Part shown: positions 40,746-53,798 of the stretch, one piece after another
Numbering within the stretch: position 1 is the first letter of the stretch
Layout of the letters: every line of letters starts with the position of its first letter
Source of the DNA: a virus
Length of the DNA stretch: 64,000 nucleotides
Strand: one strand, 5' to 3'
IMG/VR virus record: IMGVR_UViG_3300048919_000048
Location: 62,001-126,000 of that record
Notes under the pieces: model-generated
Told to the model about the DNA's origin: nothing
Databases searched by the model: none
Seen by the model: only the letters and a program-made list of their open reading frames with translations
Made by a program: the position numbers and the translations under genes

Positions 40746-40747
40746 AA

Positions 40748-40836: not shown

Positions 40837-40841
40837 CTATT

Positions 40842-40928: not shown

Positions 40929-40932
40929 AAAT

Positions 40933-41025
40933 TGGCGGAAGATAATAGAGTCGAACTATCACCGTGGGGTCGCCACAGCGGGCCGGGGTTCAAATCCGGG
41001 TGCGTACCACTACGCCCTATCTTCC
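40933..41025 (-). tRNA. tRNA-Ser (UGA)
   Basis: A 93-base class II tRNA: acceptor GGAAGAT, anticodon loop TTTGAAC, extended variable arm, T loop TTCGACT and CCA. One A-C mismatch is in the anticodon stem. It begins 2 bases after the lectin-like gene stop, so gene and tRNA share a transcript. Confidence 0.8.
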
Positions 41026-41026
41026 A

Positions 41027-41689: not shown

Positions 41690-41702
41690 ACACACCTCGA
41701 AT

Positions 41703-41778
41703 TGGGGTGACCTGTGGGACTTGAACCCACGACTGCCCGGTTCACAACCGGGGATTCTACCTGCTGAATTAAGGCCAC
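41703..41778 (-). tRNA. tRNA-His (GUG)
   Basis: Acceptor GTGGCCT/AGGTCAC, anticodon loop TTGTGAA, T loop TTCAAGT, C at the discriminator and encoded CCA. The base before the acceptor is T, so the usual G-1 of tRNA-His is not encoded here. Confidence 0.85.
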
Positions 41779-41783
41779 ATTTC

Positions 41784-41843
41784 AGTGCTCTCCTGTTGAA
41801 GCCATCACAGCGTTGCTGATCCATCATTCAACCCAAAAGCACT
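41784..41843 (-). ncRNA. Nested-hairpin RNA between tRNA-His and tRNA-Gln (element C)
   Basis: Three nested stems in 60 bases: AGTGCT/AGCACT outside, GTTGAA/TTCAAC in the middle and CAGC/GCTG with a 3-base loop at the tip. No tRNA features. It is either a small stable RNA or a processing signal. Confidence 0.4.
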
Positions 41844-41849
41844 CAAAAA

Positions 41850-41924
41850 TGGCGGGGGATGGAGGATTCGAACCTCGCGTTAGCGGGATCAAAACCCGCT
41901 GTTTTGCCAATTAAACTAATCCCC
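41850..41924 (-). tRNA. tRNA-Gln (UUG)
   Basis: Acceptor GGGGATT, anticodon loop TTTTGAT on stem GCGGG/CCCGC, T loop TTCGAAT and encoded CCA. Confidence 0.9.
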
Positions 41925-41965
41925 TACGCTGGGTGAGATAACCCGATCACCACGGGCAATAAAAT

Positions 41966-42039
41966 TGGAGCGGACATCCGGGATCGAACCGGACTCATTA
42001 GCTTGGAAGGCTAAGGCACAACCACTATACCATGCCCGC
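41966..42039 (-). tRNA. tRNA-Gly (UCC)
   Basis: Acceptor GCGGGCA/TGTCCGC, anticodon loop CTTCCAA on stem TTAGC/GCTAA, T loop TTCGATC and CCA. Confidence 0.9.
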
Positions 42040-42045
42040 TTTATG

Positions 42046-42123
42046 TGGTACTCCAGGAGAGATTCGAACTCATCACTGACATGATCCTAAATCAAGTGCC
42101 TCTACCAATTGGGCTACTGGAGC
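42046..42123 (-). tRNA. tRNA with anticodon UAG (Leu-type anticodon, short variable arm)
   Basis: Acceptor GCTCCAG/CTGGAGT, anticodon loop TTTAGGA, T loop TTCGAAT, discriminator A and CCA. The anticodon UAG reads CUN leucine codons, but the variable region is only about 6 bases, whereas bacterial tRNA-Leu has a long arm. The T stem has two mismatches. Confidence 0.7.
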
Positions 42124-42132
42124 GAAGATGGA

Positions 42133-42202
42133 TGCGGGGGTCGGATTCGAACCGACGACATGAGGCGTATGAGACCTCCGCGCTACCGCTGGGCCACCCC
42201 GC
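42133..42202 (-). tRNA. tRNA-Met (CAU), elongator or Ile2 type
   Basis: Acceptor GCGGGGT with a 7th-pair mismatch, anticodon loop CTCATAC on stem GAGGT/GCCTC, T loop TTCGAAT. G1-C72 pairing argues against initiator tRNA. CCA is not placed directly after the discriminator (TCCA follows), so it may be added after trimming. It could be lysidine-modified tRNA-Ile. Confidence 0.75.
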
Positions 42203-42209
42203 AATAATT

Positions 42210-42286
42210 TGGTCGGTGTACGAGGACTCGAACCTCGGACCTAATGCTCCCAAAGCAATCGCTCTACCAAACTGAGCTACACACCG
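42210..42286 (-). tRNA. tRNA-Pro (UGG)
   Basis: Acceptor CGGTGTG, anticodon loop TTTGGGA, T loop TTCGAGT, discriminator A and encoded CCA. One T-T mismatch in the anticodon stem. Confidence 0.9.
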
Positions 42287-42290
42287 TGTA

Positions 42291-42366
42291 TGGTTGGAGA
42301 TGGTGGTTTCGAACCACCGACCTGACCCTTATCAAGAGCCTGCTCTACCAACTGAGCTAATCCCCA
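42291..42366 (-). tRNA. tRNA-Ile (GAU)
   Basis: Acceptor TGGGGAT/ATCTCCA, anticodon loop TTGATAA, T loop TTCGAAA and CCA. Confidence 0.85.
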
Positions 42367-42370
42367 AAAG

Positions 42371-42446
42371 TGGCGGTCCTAACGGGATTCGAACCCGCGA
42401 CTCTCCCGTGACAGGGGAGTATGTTTACCGCTAATACCATAGGACC
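42371..42446 (-). tRNA. tRNA-Asp (GUC)
   Basis: Acceptor GGTCCTA/TAGGACC-type pairing, anticodon loop CTGTCAC on stem CTCCC/GGGAG, T loop TTCGAAT, discriminator G and CCA. Confidence 0.9.
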
Positions 42447-42452
42447 TGAATT

Positions 42453-42559
42453 TGGTTTTGAGATGAGAGTCCGAGTCTTGTACAGCCTTACCCGTTGTCA
42501 ATTGGCAGCTATCGCGCGATTCGCACTTCCGACACGGGATTTAACTGTTACACCTCAAA
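42453..42559 (-). ncRNA. tRNA-like RNA with acceptor stem and CCA (element A)
   Basis: A 107-base segment with a 7-pair acceptor-like stem (TTTGAGG / TCTCAAA, one G-U), discriminator A and encoded CCA, but no normal D or anticodon arm. A CCCGT / ACGGG helix encloses about 38 bases, and the T-arm-like loop is CTCGGAC rather than TTCGAAN. It may be a decayed tRNA or a tRNA-mimicking RNA. Confidence 0.45.
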
Positions 42560-42561
42560 GA

Positions 42562-42643
42562 TGGCAGGAAGGTGAGGAGTCGAACCCCCGGAGCCGGGGT
42601 TGGAACCCGGTGGAGTTCCACAACCCCATTAATCTACCAACCT
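42562..42643 (-). tRNA. tRNA-Trp (CCA)
   Basis: Anticodon loop TTCCAAC on a perfect CCGGG/CCCGG stem, T loop TTCGACT, discriminator G (typical of Trp) and encoded CCA. The D region is enlarged and the acceptor stem has two T-T mismatches, so folding is imperfect. Confidence 0.75.
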
Positions 42644-42649
42644 AAAAAC

Positions 42650-42727
42650 TGGTACACCCAACGGGACTCGAACCCGTATTTGCCGACGTGAAAGGTCGGT
42701 GTCCTATTCCAATTAGACGATAGGTGC
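42650..42727 (-). tRNA. tRNA-Glu (UUC)
   Basis: Acceptor GCACCTA/TGGGTGT, anticodon loop CTTTCAC on stem CCGAC/GTCGG, T loop TTCGAGT and CCA. Confidence 0.85.
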
Positions 42728-42777
42728 TTTTAACGAATAGCCATCGAAATGACTATTGATTAATTACACATATTGTT

Positions 42778-42853
42778 TGGCTGACGGTACTGGATTCGAA
42801 CCAGTTATCCTGGGCTTAACAGGCCCCCGCATGTCCATATATGCTCACCGTCA
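42778..42853 (-). tRNA. tRNA-Asn (GUU)
   Basis: Acceptor TGACGGT/ACCGTCA, anticodon loop CTGTTAA, T loop TTCGAAT, discriminator G and CCA. Confidence 0.85.
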
Positions 42854-42964
42854 ATAATAGGGTGCGCCCCTTCCGGTGTGATTACGCAGTTATCGTCGAG
42901 GGAACTCGTAAACAGGGACCTTCAGTTGGACGACTTGCGGTTAGCTAATCCGCTTCCTTTCTTT

Positions 42965-43015
42965 ACCGTGGGCCGCAGGGAATGCAAGCATTTTACCTGA
43001 AGATATTTCCACGGT
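42965..43015 (-). ncRNA. Long hairpin RNA upstream of tRNA-Asn (element E)
   Basis: A perfect 7-pair stem (ACCGTGG / CCACGGT) encloses CAGG/CCTG and AATGC/GCATT stems on one axis. It is part of a 167-base stretch (42854-43020) between tRNA-Asn and tRNA-Lys that holds no tRNA; another near-palindrome GCGG..CCGC lies at about 42937-42953. Confidence 0.4.
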
Positions 43016-43020
43016 TTACC

Positions 43021-43097
43021 TGGTGGACCGTCAGGGACTCGAACCCCGAACCTCGGGATTAAAAGTCCCTTGCTCTAACCAATTGAGCTAACGATCC
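43021..43097 (-). tRNA. tRNA-Lys (UUU)
   Basis: Acceptor GGATCGT/ACGGTCC, anticodon loop CTTTTAA on GGGA/TCCC, T loop TTCGAGT and CCA. Confidence 0.9.
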
Positions 43098-43101
43098 GAT
43101 C

Positions 43102-43196
43102 TGGCAGTAGGAGGGAGATTTGAACTCCCGGGACCAGGGGCTACCTGATCCGACACCTTTCCAAGATGCTGCTTTAAGCCACTCAGCCATCCTACT
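43102..43196 (-). tRNA. tRNA-Ser (GGA)
   Basis: Class II tRNA with long variable arm: acceptor AGTAGGA/TCCTACT, anticodon loop TTGGAAA, T loop TTCAAAT, discriminator G and CCA. It is the third Ser tRNA in the array. Confidence 0.85.
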
Positions 43197-43202
43197 AAAA
43201 TT

Positions 43203-43290
43203 TGGTGGGGAGTGATGGAGTCGAACCACCCGAGTCGCAATGACAACAGATTTACAGTCTGCACCGCTACCTCTACGGAAATAACTCCCC
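43203..43290 (-). tRNA. tRNA-Tyr (GUA)
   Basis: Class II tRNA: acceptor GGGGAGT/ACTCCCC, anticodon loop CTGTAAA on CAGA/TCTG, long variable arm, T loop TTCGACT and CCA. Confidence 0.9.
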
Positions 43291-43293
43291 GAA

Positions 43294-43425
43294 ATTCTCT
43301 TTTGTTCGGCTCACCTGATATCCATGAGGCTGCGCTACCTCATATAGACCTTATTCGCTGGACCGCCCCGTTGTACACCGTGACTATCTTGCGAGTTCGT
43401 TAACAGATGCCCGACAGAAGAGAAC
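43294..43425. ncRNA. Structured RNA beside tRNA-Tyr (element F)
   Basis: A 132-base segment whose ends pair over 17 positions with about 14 matches (43294-43310 with 43409-43425). It contains a perfect 6-pair hairpin ATGAGG/CCTCAT (43324-43343). No frame or tRNA fits it. The strand is uncertain, but neighbours are on the minus strand. It is directly after the 43458 gene terminator. Confidence 0.5.
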
Positions 43426-43431
43426 TTTAAT

Positions 43432-43454
43432 AAAGGCCCCTAATGAGGGCCTTT
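43432..43454 (-). terminator. Terminator after small-terminase candidate
   Basis: On the minus strand AAAGGCCC-TCATTAG-GGGCCTTT followed by ATTAAA, 4 bases after the stop at 43458. Confidence 0.85.
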
Positions 43455-43457
43455 CAA

Positions 43458-43832
43458 TTACTCATCTTCCCCTACCACTTTATACTCACGAATTTCGGTT
43501 GTCAATGGCATAACCGCTTTTAGTTCATCAGATGAACCTGAGTGAGTCTGGGAGGAGGCAGATGTTGTGCCGCCTGCTGCGTCGTCTTCGTTATCCTCTT
43601 CAGTGTAGAGGTTGTTAACCTCTTTCGCCTGCTCAAGGATATACTTCGCCGTCGTTTCTTTCACCTTCTCTGTGCCGGAGGTCAGAAGACCTTCGAGAGT
43701 GGAGATAGCTTTCGGCGTCAGACGGGCTAATTCGCCTCGGAGATTAATCATTGCCTTTTCAAGGGCAATGGCTGTACTCTCCTCTTTGCTTGGGCGACCA
43801 CGCTTACGAGTTACAATCGCAGCCTTGCTCAT
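43458..43832 (-). CDS. Small terminase subunit candidate
   Basis: A 124-residue protein. An AT-hook-like KRGRPSKEE lies near residues 10-18. A helical part follows (about 22-75) with AISTLEGLLTSGTEKVKETT, and the C-terminus is acidic and Ser-rich. The N-terminal basic motif followed by this helix repeat is common in small terminase subunits. It is separated from the large subunit by about 3.7 kb of RNA genes, spanins and the lectin-like gene. It has its own promoter and terminator. Confidence 0.55.
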   Translation of the reverse strand: MSKAAIVTRKRGRPSKEESTAIALEKAMINLRGELARLTPKAISTLEGLLTSGTEKVKETTAKYILEQAKEVNNLYTEEDNEDDAAGGTTSASSQTHSGSSDELKAVMPLTTEIREYKVVGEDE

Positions 43833-43858
43833 AATGCCCCCATTGAGTTAGTGTATTC

Positions 43859-43887
43859 ATCTTAGCAGTATAATTACACTATGTCAA
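43859..43887 (-). promoter_or_regulatory. Sigma70-like promoter for 43458-43832 gene
   Basis: On the minus strand TTGACA (43887-43882), 17 bases and TAAGAT (43864-43859), about 27 bases before the gene start. The -35 is a perfect consensus. Confidence 0.7.
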
Positions 43888-43903
43888 TAGGTTACATGAA
43901 AAT

Positions 43904-44026
43904 TGGCAGCGACTCCAGGATTCGAACCCGAACAGCCCGGCGATCAACCCGGGAGCGAAGTACCCTATTGGATAGATGGTCTACTCATGCCTGAGCGATT
44001 CCCATTTCTCCTCAACCTCAGTCGCC
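43904..44026 (-). ncRNA. Oversized tRNA-like RNA with CCA (element B)
   Basis: A 123-base segment with acceptor stem GGCGACT/AGTCGCT, canonical T arm (loop TTCGAAT, 5-pair stem), discriminator G and encoded CCA. The anticodon-type stem CCCGG/CCGGG has an 8-base loop GTTGATCG. About 60 bases lie where a D arm should be. It may be a tRNA with an insertion, or a tRNA mimic; GAU (Ile) is one possible anticodon reading. Confidence 0.5.
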
Positions 44027-44032
44027 AATGTG

Positions 44033-44112
44033 TGGTGCCCCTCCCCGGAGTCGAACCGGGAACTCCTGCCGTTTGAAAGCAGAGCCTCTACCTTTTGTTG
44101 GGCCAGAGGGGC
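44033..44112 (-). tRNA. tRNA with anticodon CAA (Leu-type anticodon, short variable arm)
   Basis: Acceptor GCCCCTC/GAGGGGC, anticodon loop TTCAAAC on stem CTGCT/GGCAG, T loop TTCGACT, discriminator A and CCA. The anticodon reads UUG leucine, but the variable loop is about 5 bases, unlike bacterial tRNA-Leu. The D loop is enlarged. Confidence 0.75.
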
Positions 44113-44113
44113 T

Positions 44114-44190
44114 TGGAGCAACGTACTGGATTCGAACCAGTGAACACCTCGTTTGCAGCGAGAGCCGTTACCAGACTCCGGCAACGTTGC
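44114..44190 (-). tRNA. tRNA-Cys (GCA)
   Basis: Acceptor GCAACGT/ACGTTGC, anticodon loop CTGCAAA, T loop TTCGAAT, discriminator T (U73, typical of Cys) and CCA. Confidence 0.9.
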
Positions 44191-44196
44191 ATGATC

Positions 44197-44272
44197 TGGT
44201 GCTGGATGCAGGGGTCGAACCCGCGACCTTCTGATTACAAATCAGTTGCTCTACCAACTGAGCTAATCCAGC
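44197..44272 (-). tRNA. tRNA-Thr (UGU)
   Basis: Acceptor GCTGGAT/ATCCAGC, D loop AGTTGGTAGA, anticodon loop TTTGTAA, T loop TTCGACC, discriminator A and CCA. It is the first tRNA of the array in transcription order. Confidence 0.9.
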
Positions 44273-44540
44273 AAATCTCCCAGCAAGTCCGGTAGCTGTT
44301 ACACTCCGGGGGAGGGAGAAATGGGCAGAGGACGTATGCCCGTGGGGTTGACTTCCCCTTACCGTCCAGCAAAACATGTTTCACGTTACGGGTGGTCGTA
44401 AGACCTGAAGCAACCGTCGCTATTCCAGAGGTCGTCGATGGAGCCGCTGTCTTCCGGCTGAACTGGCCCAACGTCATCGCAGAGGGTCCACTTTATCCAT
44501 CCACCTACTTGATTGTCATCTCGTTCGGGACATATTCAGA
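44273..44540. other. Leader region of the tRNA array, no gene seen
   Basis: About 270 bases without a convincing frame or tRNA. Short inverted repeats occur: TCTCCC/GGGAGA around 44276-44327 and GGGC/GCCC around 44331-44349. It probably serves as leader and processing region for the array. Confidence 0.4.
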
Positions 44541-44723
44541 TTACTTGGAGTCATGTTCTTTGTCAACAGGCTTTTTATCGTTTGCACAAAGATTGCACAT
44601 TATACTCCGTTTTGGACCGAGATATCGGTTACCGCACACGAAACAGAGGCAGATGTAGCCCTTGTATTCGTGGTTCCGGGGGTCATCAGCCCCCGGCAGG
44701 TGATTAAAGGTCCGGGCGCTCAT
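44541..44723 (-). CDS. Small zinc-finger-like protein
   Basis: A 60-residue basic protein started at 44723, with GGGGAG 7 bases upstream. CFVCG near residues 27-31 and CNLC near 43-46 form a four-Cys zinc-knuckle pattern. It overlaps the upstream micro-gene in another frame. A regulatory or nucleic-acid-binding role is possible. Confidence 0.55.
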   Translation of the reverse strand: MSARTFNHLPGADDPRNHEYKGYICLCFVCGNRYLGPKRSIMCNLCANDKKPVDKEHDSK

Positions 44724-44796
44724 CGAAAACTCCCCAGTCCTCTTCATTTCTTATACCCTCACCCCAGCCTACGAAACCGTCGAACTCGTCTTTCAT
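44704..44796 (-). CDS. Micro-protein, paralogue of 44798-44887 (30 aa)
   Basis: A 30-residue acidic peptide with GGGGAG 7 bases before its ATG. Residues 10-20 read GWGEGIRNEED, which matches GYGDGIRDEED in the neighbouring micro-gene. The conserved core and good ribosome sites suggest two duplicated real genes. Function unknown. Confidence 0.5.
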   Translation of the reverse strand: MKDEFDGFVGWGEGIRNEEDWGVFDERPDL

Positions 44797-44797
44797 G

Positions 44798-44887
44798 TCA
44801 GACTCCCCAATTGTGTTCAAAGAACTCAAAATCTTCTTCGTCACGGATACCATCTCCGTATCCAATCACCAATTCAGTGCTGTTCAT
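44798..44887 (-). CDS. Micro-protein, paralogue of 44704-44796 (29 aa)
   Basis: A 29-residue acidic peptide; GGAGGA lies 8 bases upstream and its ATG overlaps the preceding stop. Core GYGDGIRDEED. It stands immediately before its paralogue. No known family. Confidence 0.5.
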   Translation of the reverse strand: MNSTELVIGYGDGIRDEEDFEFFEHNWGV

Positions 44888-45105
44888 ACTGAAATATCCT
44901 CCACATAGTAGGTTAATCCCGGGAGACCATCTCCCTTCATGTCGTTATCGACAAGCTCTTTAATCCCGGATGCAAGAAGTTTATGCATTTCAACCTTGAT
45001 CTGGTCCATAGACAACTGCTTCAACTTTTCCTCCAGATAAGGGGCCAAGTCGGCATTGCTGTAGTCCATTTCAAAAGTGACCTTCACTTCGATAACCTGC
45101 TTCAT
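44884..45105 (-). CDS. Hypothetical protein
   Basis: A 73-residue acidic protein: a beta strand start (VIEVKVTFEMDY), a central helix and a short C-terminal strand. It overlaps both neighbours by about 4 bases. The opening strand resembles that of the gene upstream (YVVTIDLDDDY), so they may share a fold. Function unknown. Confidence 0.6.
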   Translation of the reverse strand: MKQVIEVKVTFEMDYSNADLAPYLEEKLKQLSMDQIKVEMHKLLASGIKELVDNDMKGDGLPGLTYYVEDISV

Positions 45106-45329
45106 TTAACCTCTCCGTCGAAGGTTACAGAGACTTTGGTCGCTCCAGCTTCACCCATCCCCCGCATCAAGGTTTCTGTTATTGCCTCTGGGAACTTGTC
45201 TTCCGCTACAGAGTATACCGGGTTACTCTCGTCAACACCAGGCACATTCTTCAGTTCTTTGATGACCTCTGGTGTAGATAGATAATCATCATCCAGATCA
45301 ATCGTAACGACATACTGAAATTTTCTCAA
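45102..45329 (-). CDS. Hypothetical protein
   Basis: A 75-residue acidic protein, a small alpha/beta fold by composition, coupled by 4-base overlaps to its neighbours. No motif recognised. It belongs to the run of small genes downstream of the NadV gene. Confidence 0.6.
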   Translation of the reverse strand: MRKFQYVVTIDLDDDYLSTPEVIKELKNVPGVDESNPVYSVAEDKFPEAITETLMRGMGEAGATKVSVTFDGEVK

Positions 45330-45577
45330 ATTTCCTCCTTCAAAATTGCCAGTTTATAACGAGAGGTCTTATCAACCTCATTTGGGTAAAACGAGTATAA
45401 ACGGTTACCATCTCCAAAGTCAACACTTTGCCAATGCTCAAGTGGGAACCCTACGGTGCTGAAGGCTAAATCGTCCGCATCGTCGAGGGCATCTTGAAGT
45501 GTGGGGTAATGCTCAGAGTGTTCTTCGGAAGTGTAATCGGGGGTGACAAAACTGAGAGTGAGTTTATAGGGATTCAT
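45326..45577 (-). CDS. Hypothetical protein
   Basis: An 83-residue protein, rich in Tyr, Asp and Leu, with an Asp-rich helix LQDALDDADDLAF near residues 27-39. A sigma70-like promoter lies upstream (45612-45640), so it starts a sub-operon of small genes. Function unknown. Confidence 0.6.
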   Translation of the reverse strand: MNPYKLTLSFVTPDYTSEEHSEHYPTLQDALDDADDLAFSTVGFPLEHWQSVDFGDGNRLYSFYPNEVDKTSRYKLAILKEEI

Positions 45578-45611
45578 AAGTCCAACAGTAAGTTAATCAA
45601 GTGATATGGTC

Positions 45612-45640
45612 ATTTTACTGGAGGACTTAACGATAGTCAA
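45612..45640 (-). promoter_or_regulatory. Sigma70-like promoter for small-gene operon
   Basis: On the minus strand TTGACT (45640-45635), 17 bases and TAAAAT (45617-45612). The -35 overlaps the end of the preceding gene. Confidence 0.6.
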
Positions 45641-45966
45641 CGCTTGACGAAGGAGTCAAGGAAATCGGCAAGCAGGCCGGGGGTTGGGGTCAAGGTTAGC
45701 TCGACACGTAGCGTCCGGCTCTTCGTATCCTCCTCGGAAAGAGGGAGGCATTTTACGGCAGGAGTGAAGTCAACCAGGGGCTTAACTTCCTCCCCGTCAA
45801 TAAAGCACCTGACTTCCTTGTTGTCATAAACGCGCTGTGCGACGTTCTCAGCGTTTTCTGCGTAGTAGTCAAGCAAACCCTCGTCTACGGTCTGTTGTGG
45901 CTCCTTAGAGCGATCCAGGTGGGTTGCTGCACGGTTCCTGTCATGTTTTGCGACAAGGTTTCTCAT
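45637..45966 (-). CDS. Hypothetical protein
   Basis: A 109-residue soluble protein. A helix (about residues 25-48) is followed by beta-rich segments with TLRVELTLTPTPGLLADFLD near 84-103. Its ATG overlaps the preceding stop. No family recognised. Confidence 0.6.
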   Translation of the reverse strand: MRNLVAKHDRNRAATHLDRSKEPQQTVDEGLLDYYAENAENVAQRVYDNKEVRCFIDGEEVKPLVDFTPAVKCLPLSEEDTKSRTLRVELTLTPTPGLLADFLDSFVKR

Positions 45967-46133
45967 TCGCTGTGCTCCGAGATGATTGAATGGATGTTTC
46001 CGAGTTCAACATCGACGGTATCGAGTTCATCAAGAGGCTCGAAGTCTTCAATGTTTCCTTGTCGGTCCAAATACACTATGGCGATCTCAGTGATGGTCCG
46101 GGTAATAGTTGCCTTTACCTTACGAGGTTTCAT
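45963..46133 (-). CDS. Hypothetical protein (56 aa)
   Basis: A short frame with AGGAGAA 5 bases before ATG 46133, sitting directly after the NadV terminator. The N-terminus is basic (MKPRKVKATITRTITE) and the rest acidic. Its TGA overlaps the next ATG. The strong ribosome site and coupling support it. Function unknown. Confidence 0.55.
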   Translation of the reverse strand: MKPRKVKATITRTITEIAIVYLDRQGNIEDFEPLDELDTVDVELGNIHSIISEHSE

Positions 46134-46150
46134 ATTTTCTCCTGTGAGAA

Positions 46151-46170
46151 AACCGCCCCGAAGGGCGGTT
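46151..46170 (-). terminator. Terminator after NadV-like gene
   Basis: On the minus strand AACCGCCC-TTCG-GGGCGGTT is followed by TTCTCAC, 5 bases after the stop at 46175. Confidence 0.85.
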
Positions 46171-46174
46171 GAAA

Positions 46175-47965
46175 TTATTTCAGGTTTGCTGTGACACGCT
46201 CACGGATTTCAGTCAGCGTTTCGTCAACCAACAGTTTGCCGTCACGGAACACGACACGGAGTTCGTTATCGGCATCGTTGACTTGCTCCAGTTGGAGGTT
46301 ATCAACCAGCTTCAGTTCTCCGTCTTCACCACGAACAACCTTCAGGAAGCCCTGAGCAGACTTCTTGCCAAGGTCGGTCTTAGGCTCTTTGACGACCATG
46401 ATTTGCTGACCGTCGATAACCGCGCCAGTTGCCTTCACGGCCTGACCCAGAGAATCACGGGTGTTGAACTGAGTGGTGAAAGAACCAACACCAAACACAA
46501 CGTTGCTTGATGCAAAGCCCTTCGCTTCCAGACGCTCGAAGATCTCTTTGGCGCGGGCCACGGTGATGGAGTCACCGTAAATCAGACCGACATGAGTATC
46601 CAGAGTGCGGTAGCCTTTGGAGTTCACATCTCCGCCGAACACATCGTGCAGGAGTTCAACAGAACCTTTCTGCTCGTTGGTCAGTTCTGGCTTGTCGATA
46701 GCCGTCACCTTGCTACCATCAACGTAGTAATACGTGTATTCAGCACGGTTCCACTCAATGGAGCCACTCATGCGGTACAGTTCACCGTCGAACAGGAAGA
46801 AACGCTCAACGATGTCATCGCCACGTTCACCATGTGGAGTATCCTGACGGACCTCTTCAACGGCGCTTTCCAGTGCCCAGCTTGCCGCTTTTTCCAGAGT
46901 ACCAGCTTCATCGAGTGCCTCGATTTTACGCCAGTCGAGTGTGCCACAGATGATATCTTCCGGTACGCCGGAGTCCGGGCGGAATACCACACGACCGTCA
47001 CGGGCCATGATTTCATCTTTCAGGATGCGAACACCCTCAGTGATCAGACGGAACCAGTCATAGCTATCGCCGACATATGACACGAAACCTTTCGGGAAGA
47101 TTTCCGTGATGTAACGACGCAGGAACTCGACCTCTGCGTGGAAACGCAGGTCATCCAGCGACATTTCCGGATGCTCAGAACGAAGGCGTCCGATGATGAA
47201 GCCGATGTTCGTTGTTGCAACGCTGTGCTCGGATGCCGGGATGGAGCCGGATACGAACTTACCCTTCATACCGTAATAACGGTTTGCATACAGAATCGCC
47301 GGGATGGTATCTGTACCCTGGGAGTTCATCAGTTGACCGAACTCAGACTGCGCCGCATCGTGAGTACCAGCCTGACCACGATAAGCAAAGCAGTGGATCT
47401 GGTATGGAACGTGCAGGTTGTTGTCACAGGTTTTCTGCGCCCACAGTTCAGCCAGCTTACGATACTGCCAGAAAATGGTTGCCGTGGTTACGGTTTTCCA
47501 GTTTTCAGAGGAGATCACCGACTCCAGATAGTTAGGTAACCAGTAGAAGTCCGGATGCGTGTTCTGAATGGTGAACAGCGGAACCTGTACCGGAGAAAGT
47601 GTACCTTCCGGCAGAGCACGGATTTCAACAGGCAGGTAACCCAAGTCGTGCAGCTTTTCAAAGCCCCACGTTTCAACCATGTCCGGGCCGATAGCCAGGT
47701 CACAGGTTTCTTTGAATTCGCCGATAGCGTCTTCCTTCGGACGACCGAAGAACTCACGGTTGAAGTGGTCGATCAGGAACCACTTGATAAAACCTTGCAG
47801 TCCGGCAGACATGACGCGCTGGTCATTGTCGGAGAAATGCTGGAAGTGCTTGCTTGATCGTGGTGTCATGTTGTCCTGTACGATTTCAGACTTTTTGCTG
47901 TACATGGAGATGTGGCTTGGTTTATACCAGTCAGCAAACAGAATAGGCAGGTCATTATGTAACAT
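46175..47965 (-). CDS. nadV: Nicotinamide phosphoribosyltransferase-family protein (NadV/Nampt or Namat)
   Basis: A 596-residue protein with the full Nampt signature: N-terminal DWYKPSHISMY, AYRGQAGTHDAAQSE near residues 194-208, the phosphohistidine loop SGSIPASEHSVATT near 241-254, RPDSGVPEDIICG near 333-345, then NSKGY, LIYGDSI and GVGSFTTQFN. Nampt joins nicotinamide to PRPP to give NMN. It is about 100 residues longer than usual because of an insert after RPDSG (about 350-445). It follows a PRPP-synthetase-family gene, so the pair may rebuild NAD+. In some phages the homologue uses ADP-ribose pyrophosphate instead; the sequence alone does not decide. Confidence 0.9.
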   Translation of the reverse strand: MLHNDLPILFADWYKPSHISMYSKKSEIVQDNMTPRSSKHFQHFSDNDQRVMSAGLQGFIKWFLIDHFNREFFGRPKEDAIGEFKETCDLAIGPDMVETWGFEKLHDLGYLPVEIRALPEGTLSPVQVPLFTIQNTHPDFYWLPNYLESVISSENWKTVTTATIFWQYRKLAELWAQKTCDNNLHVPYQIHCFAYRGQAGTHDAAQSEFGQLMNSQGTDTIPAILYANRYYGMKGKFVSGSIPASEHSVATTNIGFIIGRLRSEHPEMSLDDLRFHAEVEFLRRYITEIFPKGFVSYVGDSYDWFRLITEGVRILKDEIMARDGRVVFRPDSGVPEDIICGTLDWRKIEALDEAGTLEKAASWALESAVEEVRQDTPHGERGDDIVERFFLFDGELYRMSGSIEWNRAEYTYYYVDGSKVTAIDKPELTNEQKGSVELLHDVFGGDVNSKGYRTLDTHVGLIYGDSITVARAKEIFERLEAKGFASSNVVFGVGSFTTQFNTRDSLGQAVKATGAVIDGQQIMVVKEPKTDLGKKSAQGFLKVVRGEDGELKLVDNLQLEQVNDADNELRVVFRDGKLLVDETLTEIRERVTANLK

Positions 47966-47979
47966 ATGAATCTCCTCAG

Positions 47980-48004
47980 TTAAAAATCGGGGCGGTGTGC
48001 CCCG
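47980..48004 (-). terminator. Attenuator-like hairpin between prs-like and nadV genes
   Basis: On the minus strand CGGGGC-ACACC-GCCCCG is followed by ATTTTTAA and then the nadV ribosome site GAGGAGA. It may reduce nadV expression relative to the gene before it. Confidence 0.65.
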
Positions 48005-48018
48005 GAACGTGATATAAG

Positions 48019-48909
48019 TTACTGGAACTTCACCATCTTGTCAACCGATTTGAAAATTTTATTTTCGTTTCGGCCTTCGAGGTTCTTCATCCACGGGTAT
48101 GCGGAGTAAACCTCGTCGATGACATCCTTAAACACATCCGCACCGTAGGAATAAATCCCATGGGTGGTGTACAGAATGACTTCGCTTGCGCCTTGGTCAC
48201 GAAGGACCTTGCCCAGTTCGATGAAGGTTCGACCGCCATCGCAGATGTCATCAACCATAATCACACGCTTGCCCTTAACGTCAGGGCCGGAGTATGTGGT
48301 ATCCGTGATCTCATTGGTAATGAGGTTTCGGTGCTTCGTACCAACACCAATATGTCGGTGACCAACCTTCTTCGCCAGCTTGGTGACTTTCTTAATCGCC
48401 CCGGCGTCAGGTGCCACAATGACAGCGTCATCAAAGAAGCCCGGGCCGAGAATATCCAGAGCCAGTTCGTATTGCTCGAAGACGGATACGTTTTTGATGT
48501 GGGACGGGGACACGTCTGAGTGCGGGTCATCCACAATAATTCGGTCAAAGGAGCACAGCCCCAGAATTCGACCAAACACCTCAGCCGACAGCGGCTCACC
48601 TGGAACCATAACCCGGTCTTGTCGGGCATACGGGATGTAGGGCAGGTGGCAAACCTTTTTCACCAAGTGCCCGGTGCCACGACCCAGACGGTTGAATGCG
48701 TCGGTGAACAGGAGCAGGTCCATGATGGCATCTGAACTGTCCACGTTGGCATAGACCACCAGGTCTTTACCTTCCGGCATGTTTTCTTTCAGATCGGGGT
48801 TGAATGGGCTGGTCAGCATATACCCGTTGATACGGACGCTGCGCTCACCCCCGGCGAATGTTCCAAATTCGATATCCAGTTGGCTACCGCCAAGATATGC
48901 ACGAATCAT
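48019..48909 (-). CDS. prs: Ribose-phosphate pyrophosphokinase-family protein (Prs or ADPR-PP synthetase)
   Basis: A 296-residue protein of the PRPP-synthetase family. It shows the ATP-loop region LPYIPYARQDRVMVPGEPLS near residues 87-106, DDPHSD near 120-125 and the PRPP loop VIMVDDICDGGRTF near 210-223. Prs makes PRPP from ribose-5-phosphate and ATP. It is slightly shorter than host Prs (about 315). Being next to nadV, it could supply PRPP, or, as in NARP1-type pathways, add pyrophosphate to ADP-ribose. Confidence 0.9.
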   Translation of the reverse strand: MIRAYLGGSQLDIEFGTFAGGERSVRINGYMLTSPFNPDLKENMPEGKDLVVYANVDSSDAIMDLLLFTDAFNRLGRGTGHLVKKVCHLPYIPYARQDRVMVPGEPLSAEVFGRILGLCSFDRIIVDDPHSDVSPSHIKNVSVFEQYELALDILGPGFFDDAVIVAPDAGAIKKVTKLAKKVGHRHIGVGTKHRNLITNEITDTTYSGPDVKGKRVIMVDDICDGGRTFIELGKVLRDQGASEVILYTTHGIYSYGADVFKDVIDEVYSAYPWMKNLEGRNENKIFKSVDKMVKFQ

Positions 48910-48952
48910 ATTTCTCTCCTCTCAGTTAAAGTGTCTGCATGGTACAAAAATA

Positions 48953-48977
48953 AAAAGGCCCCGTCAAGAGCCTTTTA
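48953..48977 (-). terminator. Terminator after winged-helix gene
   Basis: On the minus strand AAAAGGCTC-TTGAC-GGGGCCTTTTT with a mismatch, then ATTTTTG. It overlaps the last codons of the 48964 gene. Confidence 0.75.
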
Positions 48978-49329
48978 AAATATTCGGGTCATTTACCACA
49001 ATGTACAGCCGGGACTTCACCTTACCCTCGTACACGGTGTCTTCCTTGTGCGTCGAGATGTAACCCATCTCCTCCATCCTCTTCAGGAATTGTCCAACCT
49101 TGGTTCTTGAGTTTACAGACATGCCAAAGAGAGCCGCAAGCTTACCCTGCGATTCATAATAGCACTTCTCGACCGGGATACCTTCCTTCACCGCCTTACG
49201 TGCAAAAAATCCAAACCTCCAATGAAGAATCACCATCTTCTTTACATCGTCCCCCTTCATGTCCATCACCCACTGCATTGGGAACTGGATGAAGGCACCC
49301 TCCGGGACGAAACAATCAAACTCTTCCAC
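48964..49329 (-). CDS. Winged-helix DNA-binding protein candidate
   Basis: A 121-residue protein with a winged-helix look: SQGKLAALFGMSVNSRTKVG near residues 60-79 (helix-turn-helix) followed by QFLKRMEEMGYISTHKED and a wing strand SRLYIVV. It is the first minus-strand gene beside the AT-rich divergent region, so it may control that region or start replication. The assignment is structural, without a named family. Confidence 0.6.
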   Translation of the reverse strand: MEEFDCFVPEGAFIQFPMQWVMDMKGDDVKKMVILHWRFGFFARKAVKEGIPVEKCYYESQGKLAALFGMSVNSRTKVGQFLKRMEEMGYISTHKEDTVYEGKVKSRLYIVVNDPNILKGS

Positions 49330-49460
49330 TTGCCCTCCTTACTCTAACCCGACTCCAGTTTGCCATCTTGTCTTCCACATGTCAACCATGTAGCCCAAAA
49401 GGCACACAAGAGTATATAACTACATAAAACCTCGCTACGCTCGCCCTCCGGGCTACGGTT

Positions 49461-49513
49461 TTATTAATCTTATAATTTATTCGTTACACTCATAAATTAT
49501 TAATCTTATAATT
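49461..49513. repeat. 17-bp direct repeats, 36-bp period
   Basis: Two exact copies of TTATTAATCTTATAATT start 36 bases apart in the AT-rich region. Iteron-like spacing is about 3.4 helical turns. Confidence 0.7.
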
Positions 49514-49626
49514 ATTATTCATATTCATTCATAATAATTATTAAAAAGAAGAAAACAATAGAAGATTTCTATCAATCTTAAAGATCTTTATATAGATCTT
49601 ACATGAAAAATTTTAAATTTAAAGTA

Positions 49627-49655
49627 TTGACAGGAGGATCATCAGATCATAGAAT
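49627..49655 (+). promoter_or_regulatory. Sigma70-like promoter for rightward genes
   Basis: TTGACA (49627-49632), 17 bases and TAGAAT (49650-49655), 40 bases before the gene at 49695. Perfect -35 and good spacing. Confidence 0.7.
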
Positions 49656-49694
49656 GAATACATCGAAACGAGACAACCGTATGAGGGTTATAGA

Positions 49695-49976
49695 ATGTTA
49701 AGTAATAAGAAACGTAATAAAATTGATGAACTGGAATTAGCTCATCTGGAAGCTGTGCGTGAGGCATGGCACTCAGCGAAAGCTGGCCTGAAGGTCTGCA
49801 TGGTGTCTGTTTACGAGTGTGGATGGGACACCCTGTTGGGTAAATATTATGGTGTGATGATCAAATATGTTGAGAAGGGCTTGATTTATCATCGTGTGGA
49901 AGATAGTATGAAGCCTGAACTCCAGCTTACCGCTGATGACCTTGACAATGTACTGATTACGATGGAGATGATCTGA
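49695..49976 (+). CDS. Hypothetical early protein
   Basis: A 93-residue protein, helical basic N-terminus then a beta-rich part (KVCMVSVYECGWDTLLGKYY). It is the first gene after a strong promoter and so probably early. The leader has AGGGTTATAGA as a weak ribosome site. The stop overlaps the next ATG. No family recognised. Confidence 0.65.
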   Translation: MLSNKKRNKIDELELAHLEAVREAWHSAKAGLKVCMVSVYECGWDTLLGKYYGVMIKYVEKGLIYHRVEDSMKPELQLTADDLDNVLITMEMI

Positions 49977-50203
49977 TGAAACAGTGTGTGAATGATATTG
50001 TGGCCTTCGGCCTGAATCAACGCGAGTTGGACTTGGTGGCCTTTGTGGTGATCATTGTGCTTGGAATTGTGCTTGGCCGATGGATGCTGTCCTACCTCGA
50101 CCACGGGTTGGAGACTAAAGAGGAGCGCTGGGCACGGAAGAACCCGTTCTTGGCGGTTGACTTGGACATGCACCCTCGTGGGAAGAAACGAAATGTGTGG
50201 TAA
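49976..50203 (+). CDS. Single-span membrane protein
   Basis: A 75-residue protein with one hydrophobic segment (about residues 19-37, LVAFVVIIVLGIVLG) and a basic C-terminal tail. It is coupled to neighbours by overlaps. Function unknown. Confidence 0.6.
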   Translation: MKQCVNDIVAFGLNQRELDLVAFVVIIVLGIVLGRWMLSYLDHGLETKEERWARKNPFLAVDLDMHPRGKKRNVW

Positions 50204-50393
50204 CTGTGATGATGGTTCATACCCTCACTACGGTGTTGGACCACATATCTGCTTCTACAAGATACCGGGCGCGGTGATCGGGCAATCAATAACTTTGTCC
50301 ACAGCACCTCCAAATTACGTGGAGGATTCTGACTGCCCCGGGTTGGGTGTTTGGTACTGCCCGGAGTGCCGGGCTGGAATGAAGGAGAAATAA
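50193..50393 (+). CDS. Small zinc-finger-like protein
   Basis: A 66-residue protein, start ATG 50193 inside the end of the previous gene. CGNC near residues 2-5 and CPEC near 56-59 could bind zinc, with other Cys at 20 and 49. It ends one base into the next ATG (TAATG). No family recognised. Confidence 0.55.
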   Translation: MCGNCDDGSYPHYGVGPHICFYKIPGAVIGQSITLSTAPPNYVEDSDCPGLGVWYCPECRAGMKEK

Positions 50394-50695
50394 TGGCTTT
50401 AAATTTCCGAGATGGTGTTGTCGATCGGATGGAGGAGATCTACCGGGCACAAGAGAAGCCTCGATTCTACAAGTGGTCTATTGATCTGAATGACCAGTTG
50501 GAGTATCTTGAGGAACGGATGCACCGGGCCAATATCGACTTCACTGTGACCAAGGTAAAACAGAACTGTGACAACATGCACTTGACAGTGTCAGGAGACC
50601 CGGATCAAGTGGCATGGATGGACATGGCGCTGCTTGTGTGGGCAAACAATAAACGGTGCAAGCACCTGTTGGTACTGGAGCATGTTGATGGATGA
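50393..50695 (+). CDS. Hypothetical protein
   Basis: A 100-residue protein started at ATG 50393, with GGAG 8 bases upstream. It seems alpha/beta, with a helix DQLEYLEERMHRANIDFTV near residues 33-51 and a C-terminal ALLVWANNKRCKHLLVLEHV. No known family. Confidence 0.6.
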   Translation: MALNFRDGVVDRMEEIYRAQEKPRFYKWSIDLNDQLEYLEERMHRANIDFTVTKVKQNCDNMHLTVSGDPDQVAWMDMALLVWANNKRCKHLLVLEHVDG

Positions 50696-51020
50696 GACAA
50701 TCATCGCCTACAAATTGTTTCGTGTTCGGAAGGATGGCACAATAGGCCCCCTATTCATCAACAGGAAGCTCGTGGTGGCCCCTGGTGAGTGGATGGAGGC
50801 AGAGTGCCACCCGACAAAAGGGTTCGCTTTACGGCCCGGCTGGCACTGCACACTGGCCCCTGTGGCCCCGCACCTAAGCACCAACCTGAAATCCGGTGAA
50901 GTGCGTAAATGGTTTAAGGTGGAGGTTCAGGGTATTACAACCTTCCAGCGTCCGGAGTCCCAAGGTGGGACGTGGGTCCTGGCTAAAAGACTCCGTGTCG
51001 TGGAGGAAGTGGATGTGTAA
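50688..51020 (+). CDS. Conserved phage protein of unknown function
   Basis: A 110-residue protein started at ATG 50688 (GGAG 7 bases upstream). YKLFRVRKDGTIGPLFINRK near residues 8-27 and HPTKGFALRPGWHCTLAPVA near 41-60 are typical of a small protein found in many phages and prophages, whose function is unknown. It overlaps the previous gene by 8 bases and the next starts within its last 8. Confidence 0.7.
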   Translation: MDETIIAYKLFRVRKDGTIGPLFINRKLVVAPGEWMEAECHPTKGFALRPGWHCTLAPVAPHLSTNLKSGEVRKWFKVEVQGITTFQRPESQGGTWVLAKRLRVVEEVDV

Positions 51021-51231
51021 CTGTGAAGAATGCAAGCGCTGGAGCCGGGTTTATGAAATCCAAGTCTTCCTGCGGCACCATGGAGAAGAGGCATTGCTCG
51101 ACGGTCTTGATGAACTGTATGAGACGTATGTCCATGACAGCATGGATCACGAGCATCTGAAGGCGATCGTGGACAACAAGTGGCCTTCTGCGGAGGCATA
51201 CATGAAAGAAAAGGGGTGGGTTCGTGGCTAA
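51013..51231 (+). CDS. Hypothetical small acidic protein
   Basis: A 72-residue protein, start ATG 51013 with GGAGGAAG upstream. It opens MCNCEECKRW, giving three close Cys (CNCEEC) that may bind metal, then is mostly helical. It overlaps neighbours on both sides. Confidence 0.6.
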   Translation: MCNCEECKRWSRVYEIQVFLRHHGEEALLDGLDELYETYVHDSMDHEHLKAIVDNKWPSAEAYMKEKGWVRG

Positions 51232-51649
51232 GAGTTTATCGGAGATGTGGTTGGATGCAGGAATCGACCGCTGCCTTGAGCAGCCTAAGATTGAGGAAGC
51301 CCTTCGTGAGAAGTTGAAGGATTTCTCAAATGAAGAAGATATCCAACCTTTTGACGAAGAGGAGGAACCGGAGTACGACTCACCTAACGGAAGTGTGTGG
51401 ATCGTAGCTGTCGATTACGCCGGGAGGGTAACTGTTCTGGAAACCCCGAACATTCACCCGGCACTGCTGGACAACGGCCCGGAGGCAGAATATCTCGGCC
51501 TCCCGCCGGACGTGGATGACATGGACCCAGGGGTTTATCGCTGGACGTGCAGTTATCACACCCATATTGACCGGGAGTCTGGTCAAGTTGATGATTACGA
51601 CTTTGAGATAGAGGAGTCGGTATTGCTCTGGTCACCAGATAATGCTTGA
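51224..51649 (+). CDS. Hypothetical acidic protein
   Basis: A 141-residue protein with GTG start at 51224. N-terminal helix (about residues 2-35), an acidic linker (DEEEEPEYD), then a beta-rich part with VWIVAVDYAGRVTVLETP near 58-75. It is strongly acidic. It overlaps the next micro-membrane gene. No family recognised. Confidence 0.6.
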   Translation: MAKSLSEMWLDAGIDRCLEQPKIEEALREKLKDFSNEEDIQPFDEEEEPEYDSPNGSVWIVAVDYAGRVTVLETPNIHPALLDNGPEAEYLGLPPDVDDMDPGVYRWTCSYHTHIDRESGQVDDYDFEIEESVLLWSPDNA

Positions 51650-51761
51650 CGCGGTTCGGTTCCTTGCGGTATTCTTGGTTTTCGGCGGGGTTGTCCTCGC
51701 CGGACTTACCATAATGGCGATGGCAGGAGGTGTCGGCGGTGAGAAGTGTAAAGGAGATTGA
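51642..51761 (+). CDS. Small membrane protein (39 aa)
   Basis: A short frame from ATG 51642 to TGA 51761. It is mostly hydrophobic (FLAVFLVFGGVVLAGLTIMA near residues 7-26) with a Gly-rich polar end. The start overlaps the preceding stop and the next gene starts inside it. No strong ribosome site, so coupling is likely. Confidence 0.5.
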   Translation: MLDAVRFLAVFLVFGGVVLAGLTIMAMAGGVGGEKCKGD

Positions 51762-51930
51762 GGCTGACCTGAAAAAGCAAGATTTTAGGATCTACTATCG
51801 GGCGGTTAAGGCGAGAAGCCGCCTGCAAGGCTGGCTCCCGGCACTGATTAAGGCAAACGACGAATTTTTCCGAGATAATCCGGACTACGTCGAAGGTGCA
51901 ATGTGTGGAAAACTGAAGGAGAAACAATGA
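51739..51930 (+). CDS. Hypothetical small basic protein
   Basis: A 63-residue basic helical protein. GTG 51739 is preferred because AGGAGG lies 8 bases before it; GTG 51730 in the same frame is also possible. Its stop overlaps the DNA ligase ATG. Function unknown. Confidence 0.55.
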   Translation: MRSVKEIEADLKKQDFRIYYRAVKARSRLQGWLPALIKANDEFFRDNPDYVEGAMCGKLKEKQ

Positions 51931-53306
51931 GTAACGTAACGAGTATTCTTGCAGAGTTGTCAGCAACCCGATCCTTGAAGGAGAAGGAAGCGATCCTGCG
52001 AGCAAATGCGGATAATGATGGCCTTAAACAAGCCTTCCAGATCGCATATTCCAAAGAACTGAACTTCTTCGTTCGTGGGCTGCGTGTCCCGTTCTTCACC
52101 CCCGGCCTTCGGACACTGTCAGATAGTGTCCAAATGTTGGTTGAAAACATCGCCGGGCGTGTATATACTGGTGACGATGCCAAGTCGTACATGACCCAAC
52201 TGGTGCAGACCTGCGAAGAGCCGGACACCCTGATGAAGATCATCAACCGAGACCTGGAATGTGGCATCCAGACCACGCTGACCAACAAGGTGTGGAAAGA
52301 CCTGATCACGGAACCTCCGTACCAGAGCTACACCCTGTTCAAAGAGGACCTGTTGCGTAAGTTCAACTACAAGGGCGCTTTCTCCGACGAGAAAATGGAC
52401 GGCCTGTATGCGGACATCATGGTGTGGCCTGAGCAGGTGGTCTACCGATCACGTTCCGGCAAGGAACTGAACTTCCGCGCCCCGGAGAACGTTGAACGTG
52501 CGCTGATGAAAGCGGCTGTTGACGATGACGGCACGGCGAAGCCATACGTGGCACACGGAGAAGGTCTGGTTATTGATCCAAACGGGTTGCACGGTGTTAT
52601 GGAACGTGCCGAAGGCAACGGATACCTGAACCAAGACCCGGCAGATATCGATCGTGACCGTGTTCGCCTGGTGATCTGGGACCGTGTGACGATGGATGAG
52701 TATATTGCCCGCAAGTCGAAGCGTCCGTACAGCGAACGCCGCCTGTCTGCGCAGGGCCTCGCCTGGTGGGTGGAAGATCCGGAGCACATGCAGTTCGTGA
52801 AAGGTCGACAGATCAACAGCCTCAAAGAGGCGATCGATCACTTCATCGAGATGCGTCTCCAGAAGAAAGAAGGCACGGTCCTGAAAGAGGCCGCGATGCC
52901 TTGGGGCGACAATAAGACGAAGAAAGGCGTCAAACTGAAGAACGAGTTCGATGTGGATCTGGAAGTTGTCGGGACGACCCCGCACAAGAAAGATCCAACA
53001 CTGATCGGCTCACTGATCTGTCGTACTCGTGACGGACTGCTTGAAGTTGGTGTCGGCTCCGGCCTGACCGACGCGCTTCGTAAGAAGCCTGCGGAATATT
53101 TCATCGGACAGATCATCACGATCAAGGCCAACGACATCACGAAGTCGGAGACCAAAGAGCTTCAGTCTCTGTTCCTGCCGCGCCTCAACTACAAATTCGT
53201 TGAGATCCGCTTGGACAAGACGGTCGCAAACAGTCTGCCGGAAGTGATCGAGGCGTCTGACTCACTGCTGGATCTGCTGCGGGCCATCGCGGAGGACCTG
53301 GAATGA
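51927..53306 (+). CDS. ATP-dependent DNA ligase
   Basis: A 459-residue ligase. Motif I is EKMDGLYAD near residues 155-163, with Lys 156 as the adenylation site. AHGEGLVI (about 211-218) is motif III-like, and LKNEFDVDLEVVG (about 337-349) opens the OB-domain part. About 1-145 form an N-terminal helical domain as in T4-like ligases. It seals nicks in replication and repair. AAGGAGAAA upstream marks ATG 51927, and the long C-terminal OB domain is complete. Confidence 0.9.
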   Translation: MSNVTSILAELSATRSLKEKEAILRANADNDGLKQAFQIAYSKELNFFVRGLRVPFFTPGLRTLSDSVQMLVENIAGRVYTGDDAKSYMTQLVQTCEEPDTLMKIINRDLECGIQTTLTNKVWKDLITEPPYQSYTLFKEDLLRKFNYKGAFSDEKMDGLYADIMVWPEQVVYRSRSGKELNFRAPENVERALMKAAVDDDGTAKPYVAHGEGLVIDPNGLHGVMERAEGNGYLNQDPADIDRDRVRLVIWDRVTMDEYIARKSKRPYSERRLSAQGLAWWVEDPEHMQFVKGRQINSLKEAIDHFIEMRLQKKEGTVLKEAAMPWGDNKTKKGVKLKNEFDVDLEVVGTTPHKKDPTLIGSLICRTRDGLLEVGVGSGLTDALRKKPAEYFIGQIITIKANDITKSETKELQSLFLPRLNYKFVEIRLDKTVANSLPEVIEASDSLLDLLRAIAEDLE

Positions 53307-53743
53307 CAGGATTTTGGATCGGTGCTGTCGCCTGCGTCATTCTCGGGTGTGTTTGGTACTGGGACAAGTTCATAACGCCAAAGCGTATGACCCGGCCCCC
53401 GGTAAATCGGATCATGGAGCTTATTGCAGAGAAGAAGCTGGAAGTGTACGACAATCCGTCACAAGCGGATCGGGATCGCTGTAGCCACTTTGTTGACTAT
53501 GTGATCCTCGACACCCAGCGCGGCGCAAAGACCTTCATGTACCGGGATGCCTTCCACGGATCTGCTGTTACCTCCGGAGATCTTGACTGGATGAATCGCT
53601 GGGAGCAAAACCGAGTTCTTAAACTGGTCGAGCAGATCTGCGGTGCCCGAAGGAAGGCGTATCGTAAAGCGTGTGCCGTCGAGAGGGAGGCCCGTGACGA
53701 GCGCCGACGGGAAGAAGCACAAAAGATTTACGAAAGTCGTTGA
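53303..53743 (+). CDS. Membrane-anchored hypothetical protein
   Basis: A 146-residue protein with one N-terminal membrane segment (about residues 3-21) and a basic, helical cytoplasmic part (RREEAQKIYESR end). It overlaps the ligase stop by 4 bases. It ends in the -35 region of the next promoter. No family recognised. Confidence 0.6.
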   Translation: MTGFWIGAVACVILGCVWYWDKFITPKRMTRPPVNRIMELIAEKKLEVYDNPSQADRDRCSHFVDYVILDTQRGAKTFMYRDAFHGSAVTSGDLDWMNRWEQNRVLKLVEQICGARRKAYRKACAVEREARDERRREEAQKIYESR

Positions 53744-53773
53744 CAGTGTGCCGGGGCCATGTATAATGGCCCC
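53740..53773 (+). promoter_or_regulatory. Strong sigma70 promoter with palindromic -10
   Basis: TTGACA (53740-53745), 16 bases and TATAAT (53762-53767). The -10 is inside GGGGCCAT/ATGGCCCC arms (53753-53760, 53766-53773). The core is the same as at 5288-5310. It reads into the MazG-like gene. Confidence 0.85.
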
Positions 53774-53798
53774 CACTGAAACAGAAAAGGAGAAGTTG

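Follow-up and report, generated by a model that had tools for sequence, protein, structure and literature searches.

The window analysed here, a stretch of 64,000 nucleotides from a virus record of 151,943 bases, carries two adjacent genes on the minus strand: an Adps-like gene (ADP-ribose pyrophosphate synthetase, Prs family; 48019..48909, 296 aa, ATG start), named from family profiles, and, after a gap of 53 bp, a Namat-like gene (nicotinamide ADP-ribose transferase, Nampt family; 46175..47965, 596 aa, ATG start), named from profiles, tree and structure model. The former scored 285 bits against PHROG 619 (Prs) and 135.6 bits against TIGR01251 (cut-off 113), the latter 630 bits against PHROG 448 (Nampt) and 460.5 bits against NCBIfam PRK09198 (cut-off 405); judged by these profiles, chance is excluded by a wide margin for both family assignments. 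A preliminary description of this DNA had reported a Nampt-family gene of 596 residues directly following a Prs-family gene, and both ORFs were indeed found in place, with profile scores over the curated cut-offs. Separate parts of a further family, PHROG 12872 (547 positions), are matched by the two proteins, which suggests that fused Adps-Namat proteins may occur in some phages. Among named phages, the closest that was found is Cronobacter phage CR9 (Certrevirus, Vequintavirinae), 94.9% identical across 89% of positions 40000-54000, with protein identities of 99.8% for Namat and 100% for Adps; by these similarities the source phage is Certrevirus-like.

The two genes had also been placed on one transcript, which was not borne out: the 53-bp gap contains a terminator-like GC hairpin followed by a T run (47988..48004, minus strand; -13 kcal/mol, z -3.6), sites of this kind being, as a set, not clearly over chance in the whole stretch (7 found versus 4.4 +/- 1.8 in shuffles). 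The stem of this hairpin is also present in CR9, CR3 and the related locus L004, the long T run being limited to the window and CR9. Another terminator-like hairpin was found by the terminator scan upstream of the Adps gene (48953..48976, minus strand). Downstream of the pair, 18 tRNA genes lie in a run on the minus strand (40669-44272), and a gap at 49330-49694, separating divergent gene blocks, contains promoter-like matches, such as TTGACA-17-TAGAAT at 49627 on the plus strand.

The donor used by enzymes of the Nampt family can now be approached at the residue level. A Namat signature published in 2026 consists of a clamp-helix motif with aromatics at positions 3 and 7, and of a stacking residue in the clamp loop, either Arg, or Lys/Tyr followed by a residue able to stack (PMC12774641). 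The window protein features the clamp-helix motif GSFTTQFNTRD (aa 494-504; 46454..46486, minus strand), aromatic at both positions, with Thr at position 5, which is aromatic in most others. In its clamp loop region, RSSKHF (aa 36-41; 47843..47860, minus strand), K39 aligns with R40 of the Namat of Bacillus phage SPbetaL1 and is followed by H40, so that the stacking residue would, on the alignment, be His. Ten of the 12 ligand-contact positions compared are the same as in SPbetaL1 Namat, and the residues at the Ser190 and Ala362 places are Ala and Ser. His247 (47225..47227, minus strand), invariant in a 60-row alignment, shares its number with the catalytic histidine of human Nampt.

Similarity searches, whose products include near-copies, provided 172 rows, 161 of them of Namat type. 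An 11-letter motif was obtained from 160 of these, position 3 being aromatic in 159 and both positions in 137. In contrast, all 11 control phage Nampts, picked by source and not by motif (L083, L087, L092, L094 and L095 from phage records, L096-L101 found with an Aeromonas phage 31 protein), feature GGG at the clamp-helix site, and none is aromatic at either position. The site reads GAQTYQRNTRD in the solved HdNadV (Hd standing for Haemophilus ducreyi), a structure in complex with NMN according to its title. An Adps-type ORF lies in the examined stretch for 88 of 101 Namat-type rows, the 13 exceptions including some on short contigs, versus 0 of the 11 controls. A core tree, built with FastTree on 156 rows without the insert columns and containing several long branches, which were flagged, separated 10 Nampt rows from the other 146, all Namat, at a local support of 100; the tree comparison proposed in the preliminary description thus sets the window protein among Namat, away from Nampt. 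A segment between RPDSG and the helix, 12 residues longer, was considered as a Namat-only determinant and rejected, since the IICG and KG elements of this segment also align with HdNadV.

A structure model of the window Namat (AlphaFold2, 60 aligned proteins) reached a pLDDT of 94.4 and a pTM of 0.90. The best-matching chains are two Namat entries (Z 46.5 and 46.4; 9w5x at 46.5, with 46% identity), followed by HdNadV (Z 45.2 and 45.0; 9ke8 at 45.2) and by mammalian Nampt at 41.1 or below (human Nampt 41.1). The model has a Nampt fold, with Namat entries scoring best, but a Z only 1.3 lower for HdNadV means that the fold by itself cannot separate Namat from NadV. The partner gene is similarly equivocal. 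Its phosphate-binding loop, VDDICDGGRT (aa 219-228; 48226..48255, minus strand, within the Adps-like gene), was located by alignment and compared, in a set of 133 sequences, with VDDMIDTGGT of E. coli Prs, LDDICDGGRT of Adps from Escherichia phage JohannRWettstein (Bas63) and VDDLSSFGGT of SPbetaL1 Adps; among the 40 commonest loops listed, DTGGT occurs only in that of E. coli. The window Adps scored 119 bits against Bas63 Adps, 89 against E. coli Prs and 88 against SPbetaL1 Adps, and the comparison of Adps with Prs is not decisive alone.

According to the chemistry described in the literature for both steps, and transferred here by homology, the Adps protein (48019-48909) would use ATP to transfer pyrophosphate onto the ADP-ribose left by NAD+-destroying defences, and Namat (46175-47965) would join nicotinamide and ADP-ribose pyrophosphate into NAD+ in a single step. 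The Nampt fold, ligand contacts that are for the most part conserved, the clamp signature of Namat and the Adps-type neighbour together provide the basis, drawn from alignments and a model, for reading the pair as NARP1. The clamp signature favours ADP-ribose pyrophosphate over PRPP as the candidate donor, and with it agree both the core tree and the lack of any match to the NMN adenylyltransferase family (PF01467) in the 151,943-base, possibly incomplete, record, the control giving a signal in 14 of 14 genomes. The pair is thus very probably NARP1, a new member of an established pathway. The earlier reading in terms of NARP1 is strengthened by the signature, the tree and the neighbouring gene, the Adps side being less clear when taken alone, and its reservation that the donor is not decided by sequence alone has been largely overtaken by the 2026 signature, which points to ADP-ribose pyrophosphate.

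There is, in our judgement, only a slim chance that the pair performs ordinary NMN salvage instead, a PRPP synthetase feeding NadV and the host completing NAD+ from the NMN made. Such enzymes do occur in both families, the window Adps is a clear homologue of E. coli Prs (27% identity), and Namat also accepts PRPP in vitro, which leaves room for NMN making (PMC12774641). However, neither the 11 controls nor HdNadV possess the clamp aromatics, the core tree puts the window among Namat, the Prs loop DTGGT differs from the loops of both the window and Bas63, and two control Nampts adjoin a gene annotated NadM or cytidyltransferase, for which the window record shows no PF01467 counterpart. In the same phage record, outside the window, lies a macro-domain-like gene (L190 G000:C1:38958-39317) scoring 17.6-18 bits, below the family cut-off of 22; a macro-domain gene near the NARP1 of Pakpunavirus has been speculated to free ADP-ribose for the pathway (PMC12846349).

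The window Namat has 91 residues between G341 and K433, where SPbetaL1 Namat has 10. An insert of roughly 100 residues in the Nampt gene had been noticed before, and its extent is now set at aa 342-432 (46670..46942, minus strand). In the full-length model a helix at 357-375 is followed by three strands (385-392, 395-408 and 411-424), and folding the segment alone gave the same order of elements with a pLDDT of 88; the insert is thus, on alignment and model, a predicted alpha-beta-beta-beta domain at a hypervariable site of Namat. Within the domain family H, G, W, N, R, D, K and Y are conserved at 90% or more, the window deviating at two such places, with E and Y instead of D68 and K69. Comparison of the predicted fold with the PDB yielded a best E of 0.13 with Foldseek and a best Z of 4.7, to a pseudopilin, in a second search, which is not proof of a new fold. 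The best BFVD match is a nameless viral protein of 156 aa (TM 0.68, E 2e-6), the same length as the stand-alone S4-7 ORF described below. At the sequence level, the domain gave weak single matches to Pfam and none in a PDB profile search; among PHROGs it matched the Nampt family, apart from which 2 of 12 members hit one weak endolysin family (E 0.0013).

Nearly all occurrences of the domain lie inside Namat. A scan of IMG/VR confirmed 61 loci out of 66 pattern matches, partly repeating loci fetched earlier: 60 lie within a Namat ORF and one stands alone. In a phage collection, 38 records match the window insert at E of 1 or less, and the match falls inside Namat wherever annotated or checked (LC76P1, frurule and XD2 included; unannotated records such as POP17 and POP18 were outside the check), the exception being a stand-alone 156-aa ORF of Vibrio phage S4-7, in whose record (129,756 bases) neither Namat nor Adps was found. 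The other of the two stand-alone ORFs with the domain, 135 aa long (L186:2213-2620), sits beside genes which by eye resemble those for a DNA polymerase and an SSB. Among bacterial genomes 18 pattern matches gave one confirmed case. On a Clostridium tagluense contig (L195), a cluster brings together an ORF that looks Adps-like by eye, a gene of the isochorismatase family, a Namat containing the same insert domain as the window, an ORF judged HNH-like by eye, and an NAD synthase gene. Elsewhere, an ORF that by eye looks HNH-type (L010:4834-5361) interrupts a Namat gene, the second half of which seems to begin at a new start, and Rfam gave two matches on this interrupted gene, both under the gathering score. 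Each half of the window Namat matches a PHROG of its own (16547 and 15800).

Across Namat the insert ranges from 10 to 132 aa, and those of many clades have no detectable likeness to each other. We rejected the idea that all long inserts form one visible family: a profile of the window domain was scored on 30 others (27 from fetched rows, 3 typed), and for just 3 of them did no more than 2 of 200 shuffles of the same insert reach the score of the real one. To account for where the domain is present, the core tree requires at least 24 changes, 16 of them forced by well-supported branches. Core and insert often disagree: the window is 97.8% identical to L002 in the core and 72.5% in the insert, the values for L004 being 92.5% and 87.9%; L005 and L006 share 95.2% of the core and 40% of the insert, while for L007 and L045 the relation is reversed (83.4% and 94.7%). 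In the quartet of the window with L002, L003 and L004, informative core sites join the window to L002 in 57 cases versus 13 for L004, and insert sites in 7 versus 21 (Fisher p = 2.4e-7, a test which leaves out the third grouping, with 27 core and 3 insert sites, and counts adjacent, hence non-independent, sites). The window insert therefore sides with a different relative than the window core.

The 161 Namat rows form 824 pairs with a core identity of at least 80%, non-independent and often involving short inserts, and insert identity is below 50% in 761 of them; by core-identity band the figures are 587/597, 129/131, 30/50, 13/27 and, at 99% core identity or more, 2/19. Ten rows are of Vequintavirinae type, as assigned by similarity, and in 43 of their 45 pairs no 60-residue window of the core compares as poorly as the insert.

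Further instances come from Vibrio phages. The Namat DNA of phage Ceto matches 49 Vibrio phage records, in one piece in 5 (Ceto twice, VF16, VPT02 and KIT04, the last three at 87-89%) and in two pieces in 44 (43 at 94.4-95.8% identity, VPG01 at 88.6%); as 13 of the 49 are RefSeq doubles, this corresponds to 4 and 32 of 36 names, respectively. That the break falls at the insert is confirmed for the seven genes compared, six from phages with V. harveyi BAA-1116 or V. campbellii BB120 as hosts (three of them, L113-L115, equated with Ceto, at 100% identity, Achelous and River4), plus VF16 from V. parahaemolyticus. The six have Namat cores 97.9-99.6% identical and mutually unrelated inserts (21.6-34.4%), while VF16 and Ceto share 93.3% of the insert and 94.3% of the core. 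Switching between host species does not account for this pattern. In three Vibrio phages with unrelated inserts, the 1.57 kb upstream, including Adps, is 86-89% identical. From the conflicting similarities of insert and core we infer recombination between conserved flanks, movement of larger pieces being the alternative.

Pairwise dN/dS, computed by the Nei-Gojobori method with our own script on 12 pairs, ranges in six Certrevirus-type pairs from 0.02 to 0.08 in the core and from 0.14 to 0.39 in the insert. In other pairs, where insert alignments are poor, insert values were 0.28, 0.54 (L005/L008), 0.92 (L045/L009) or not computable; several dS are near or above 1, making all these values rough. 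The insert is evolving faster than the core and, in the Certrevirus group, is not free to drift. We consider it highly probable, on sequence comparison and modelling, that the pair is NARP1 with a Namat whose predicted folded insert occupies a site of unrelated inserts among close relatives.

The suggestion that the insert marks altered substrate use found no support, and a role as substrate switch was rejected: the same clamp accompanies unrelated inserts at the same site, Bas63, whose enzyme is a Namat according to PMC12774641, included. As SPbetaL1 Namat has no insert, the domain is probably dispensable for NAD+ chemistry. In our reading it is a variable module attached to an enzyme that is itself conserved, its exposure being assumed. 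Our leading guess, offered tentatively, is that it protects Namat from something that binds or senses it; possibly, and with the same reserve, it is a cassette comparable to an antigenic-variation or decoy module, the NAD+-making core staying fixed and the added domain being swapped so as to evade some factor by which Namat is bound, sensed or inhibited.

Other roles deserve consideration. A docking platform for Adps, channelling the intermediate, would suit the adjacency of the two genes at many loci and the behaviour of the insert-free SPbetaL1 Namat, which does not bind Adps stably (PMC12774641); we regard it as quite unlikely, in view of the three Vibrio phages whose inserts are unrelated despite similar upstream regions with Adps, and of the stand-alone domain of S4-7. 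It is doubtful that the site is simply permissive, tolerating any drifting sequence, as its range of lengths, the lack of likeness between many clades and the high, poorly aligned dN/dS values of L005/L008 and L045/L009 might suggest, given the lower, if rough, values of the six Certrevirus pairs, the confidently predicted fold, the abrupt replacements and a single domain family, with its strongly conserved residues, recurring inside Namat at 60 of the 61 loci fetched, repeats included. The stand-alone ORFs of S4-7 and L186 would fit a second, independent anti-defence or regulatory protein riding inside Namat, an unlikely reading too, as such cases are only two, with no known function, and the domain has no convincing Pfam match and no sequence match in the PDB.

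The insert is the new part of the finding: no description of it was found in a literature search or in the available part of PMC12774641, the 2024 Nature survey of NARP1 genomes, which possibly lists this phage group, lying outside that search. A phage of Certrevirus type is assigned to the NARP1 group by a residue-level test, and a broad anti-defence pathway is seen to have a hypervariable, exchanged domain in its central enzyme. The kit itself would probably restore the NAD+ of the cell after bacterial defences have destroyed it. If recognition drives the variation of the insert, an unseen counter-counter-defence would be aimed at Namat, and if the cassette reading is true, bacteria or rival mobile elements would be fighting back against NARP1 itself. 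Vibrio phages that differ at the insert site while their Namat cores are almost identical already form sets on which these ideas could be tested.

Among known systems, HdNadV and the phage Nampts of Straboviridae, CcrBL9 and YB07 share with the window Namat the fold and much of the catalytic core, but lack the aromatics of the clamp helix (positions 3 and 7); a clamp helix of Nampt type, which reads GGG in the phage controls, is absent from the window. In CcrBL9 and YB07, moreover, the gene adjoins one annotated NadM or cytidyltransferase, with no Adps-type ORF in the examined stretch, a Nampt and NadM arrangement whose NMN adenylyltransferase is missing from the window record, possibly incomplete, as judged by PF01467. 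The NARP1 of Bas63, reportedly bench-tested in a 2024 Nature paper, also has Adps beside Namat, the Adps loop DDICDGGRT, Ala at the Ser190 place and a long insert at the same site; however, its Namat is 40% identical to that of the window and its insert has no profile likeness to the window's. Bas63 is a Felixounavirus (PMC8594841). The NrsAB system of Vibrio phage ICP1, in whose presence NAD+ is higher (PMC11559045), has Adps followed by Namat and the clamp motif GSYTYQYVTRD, but no long insert. The NARP1 of SPbetaL1 (PDB 9w5w/9w5x) shares gene order, clamp motif, fold (Z 46.5) and 10 of 12 ligand-contact positions, and differs in the Adps loop VDDLSSFGGT, in a Namat identity to the window of 41-51% by segment and in the lack of the insert. 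NARP1 has further been described together with RyDEP (PMC13232231) and in Pakpunavirus (PMC12846349), and the window pair would join a pathway that is already established.
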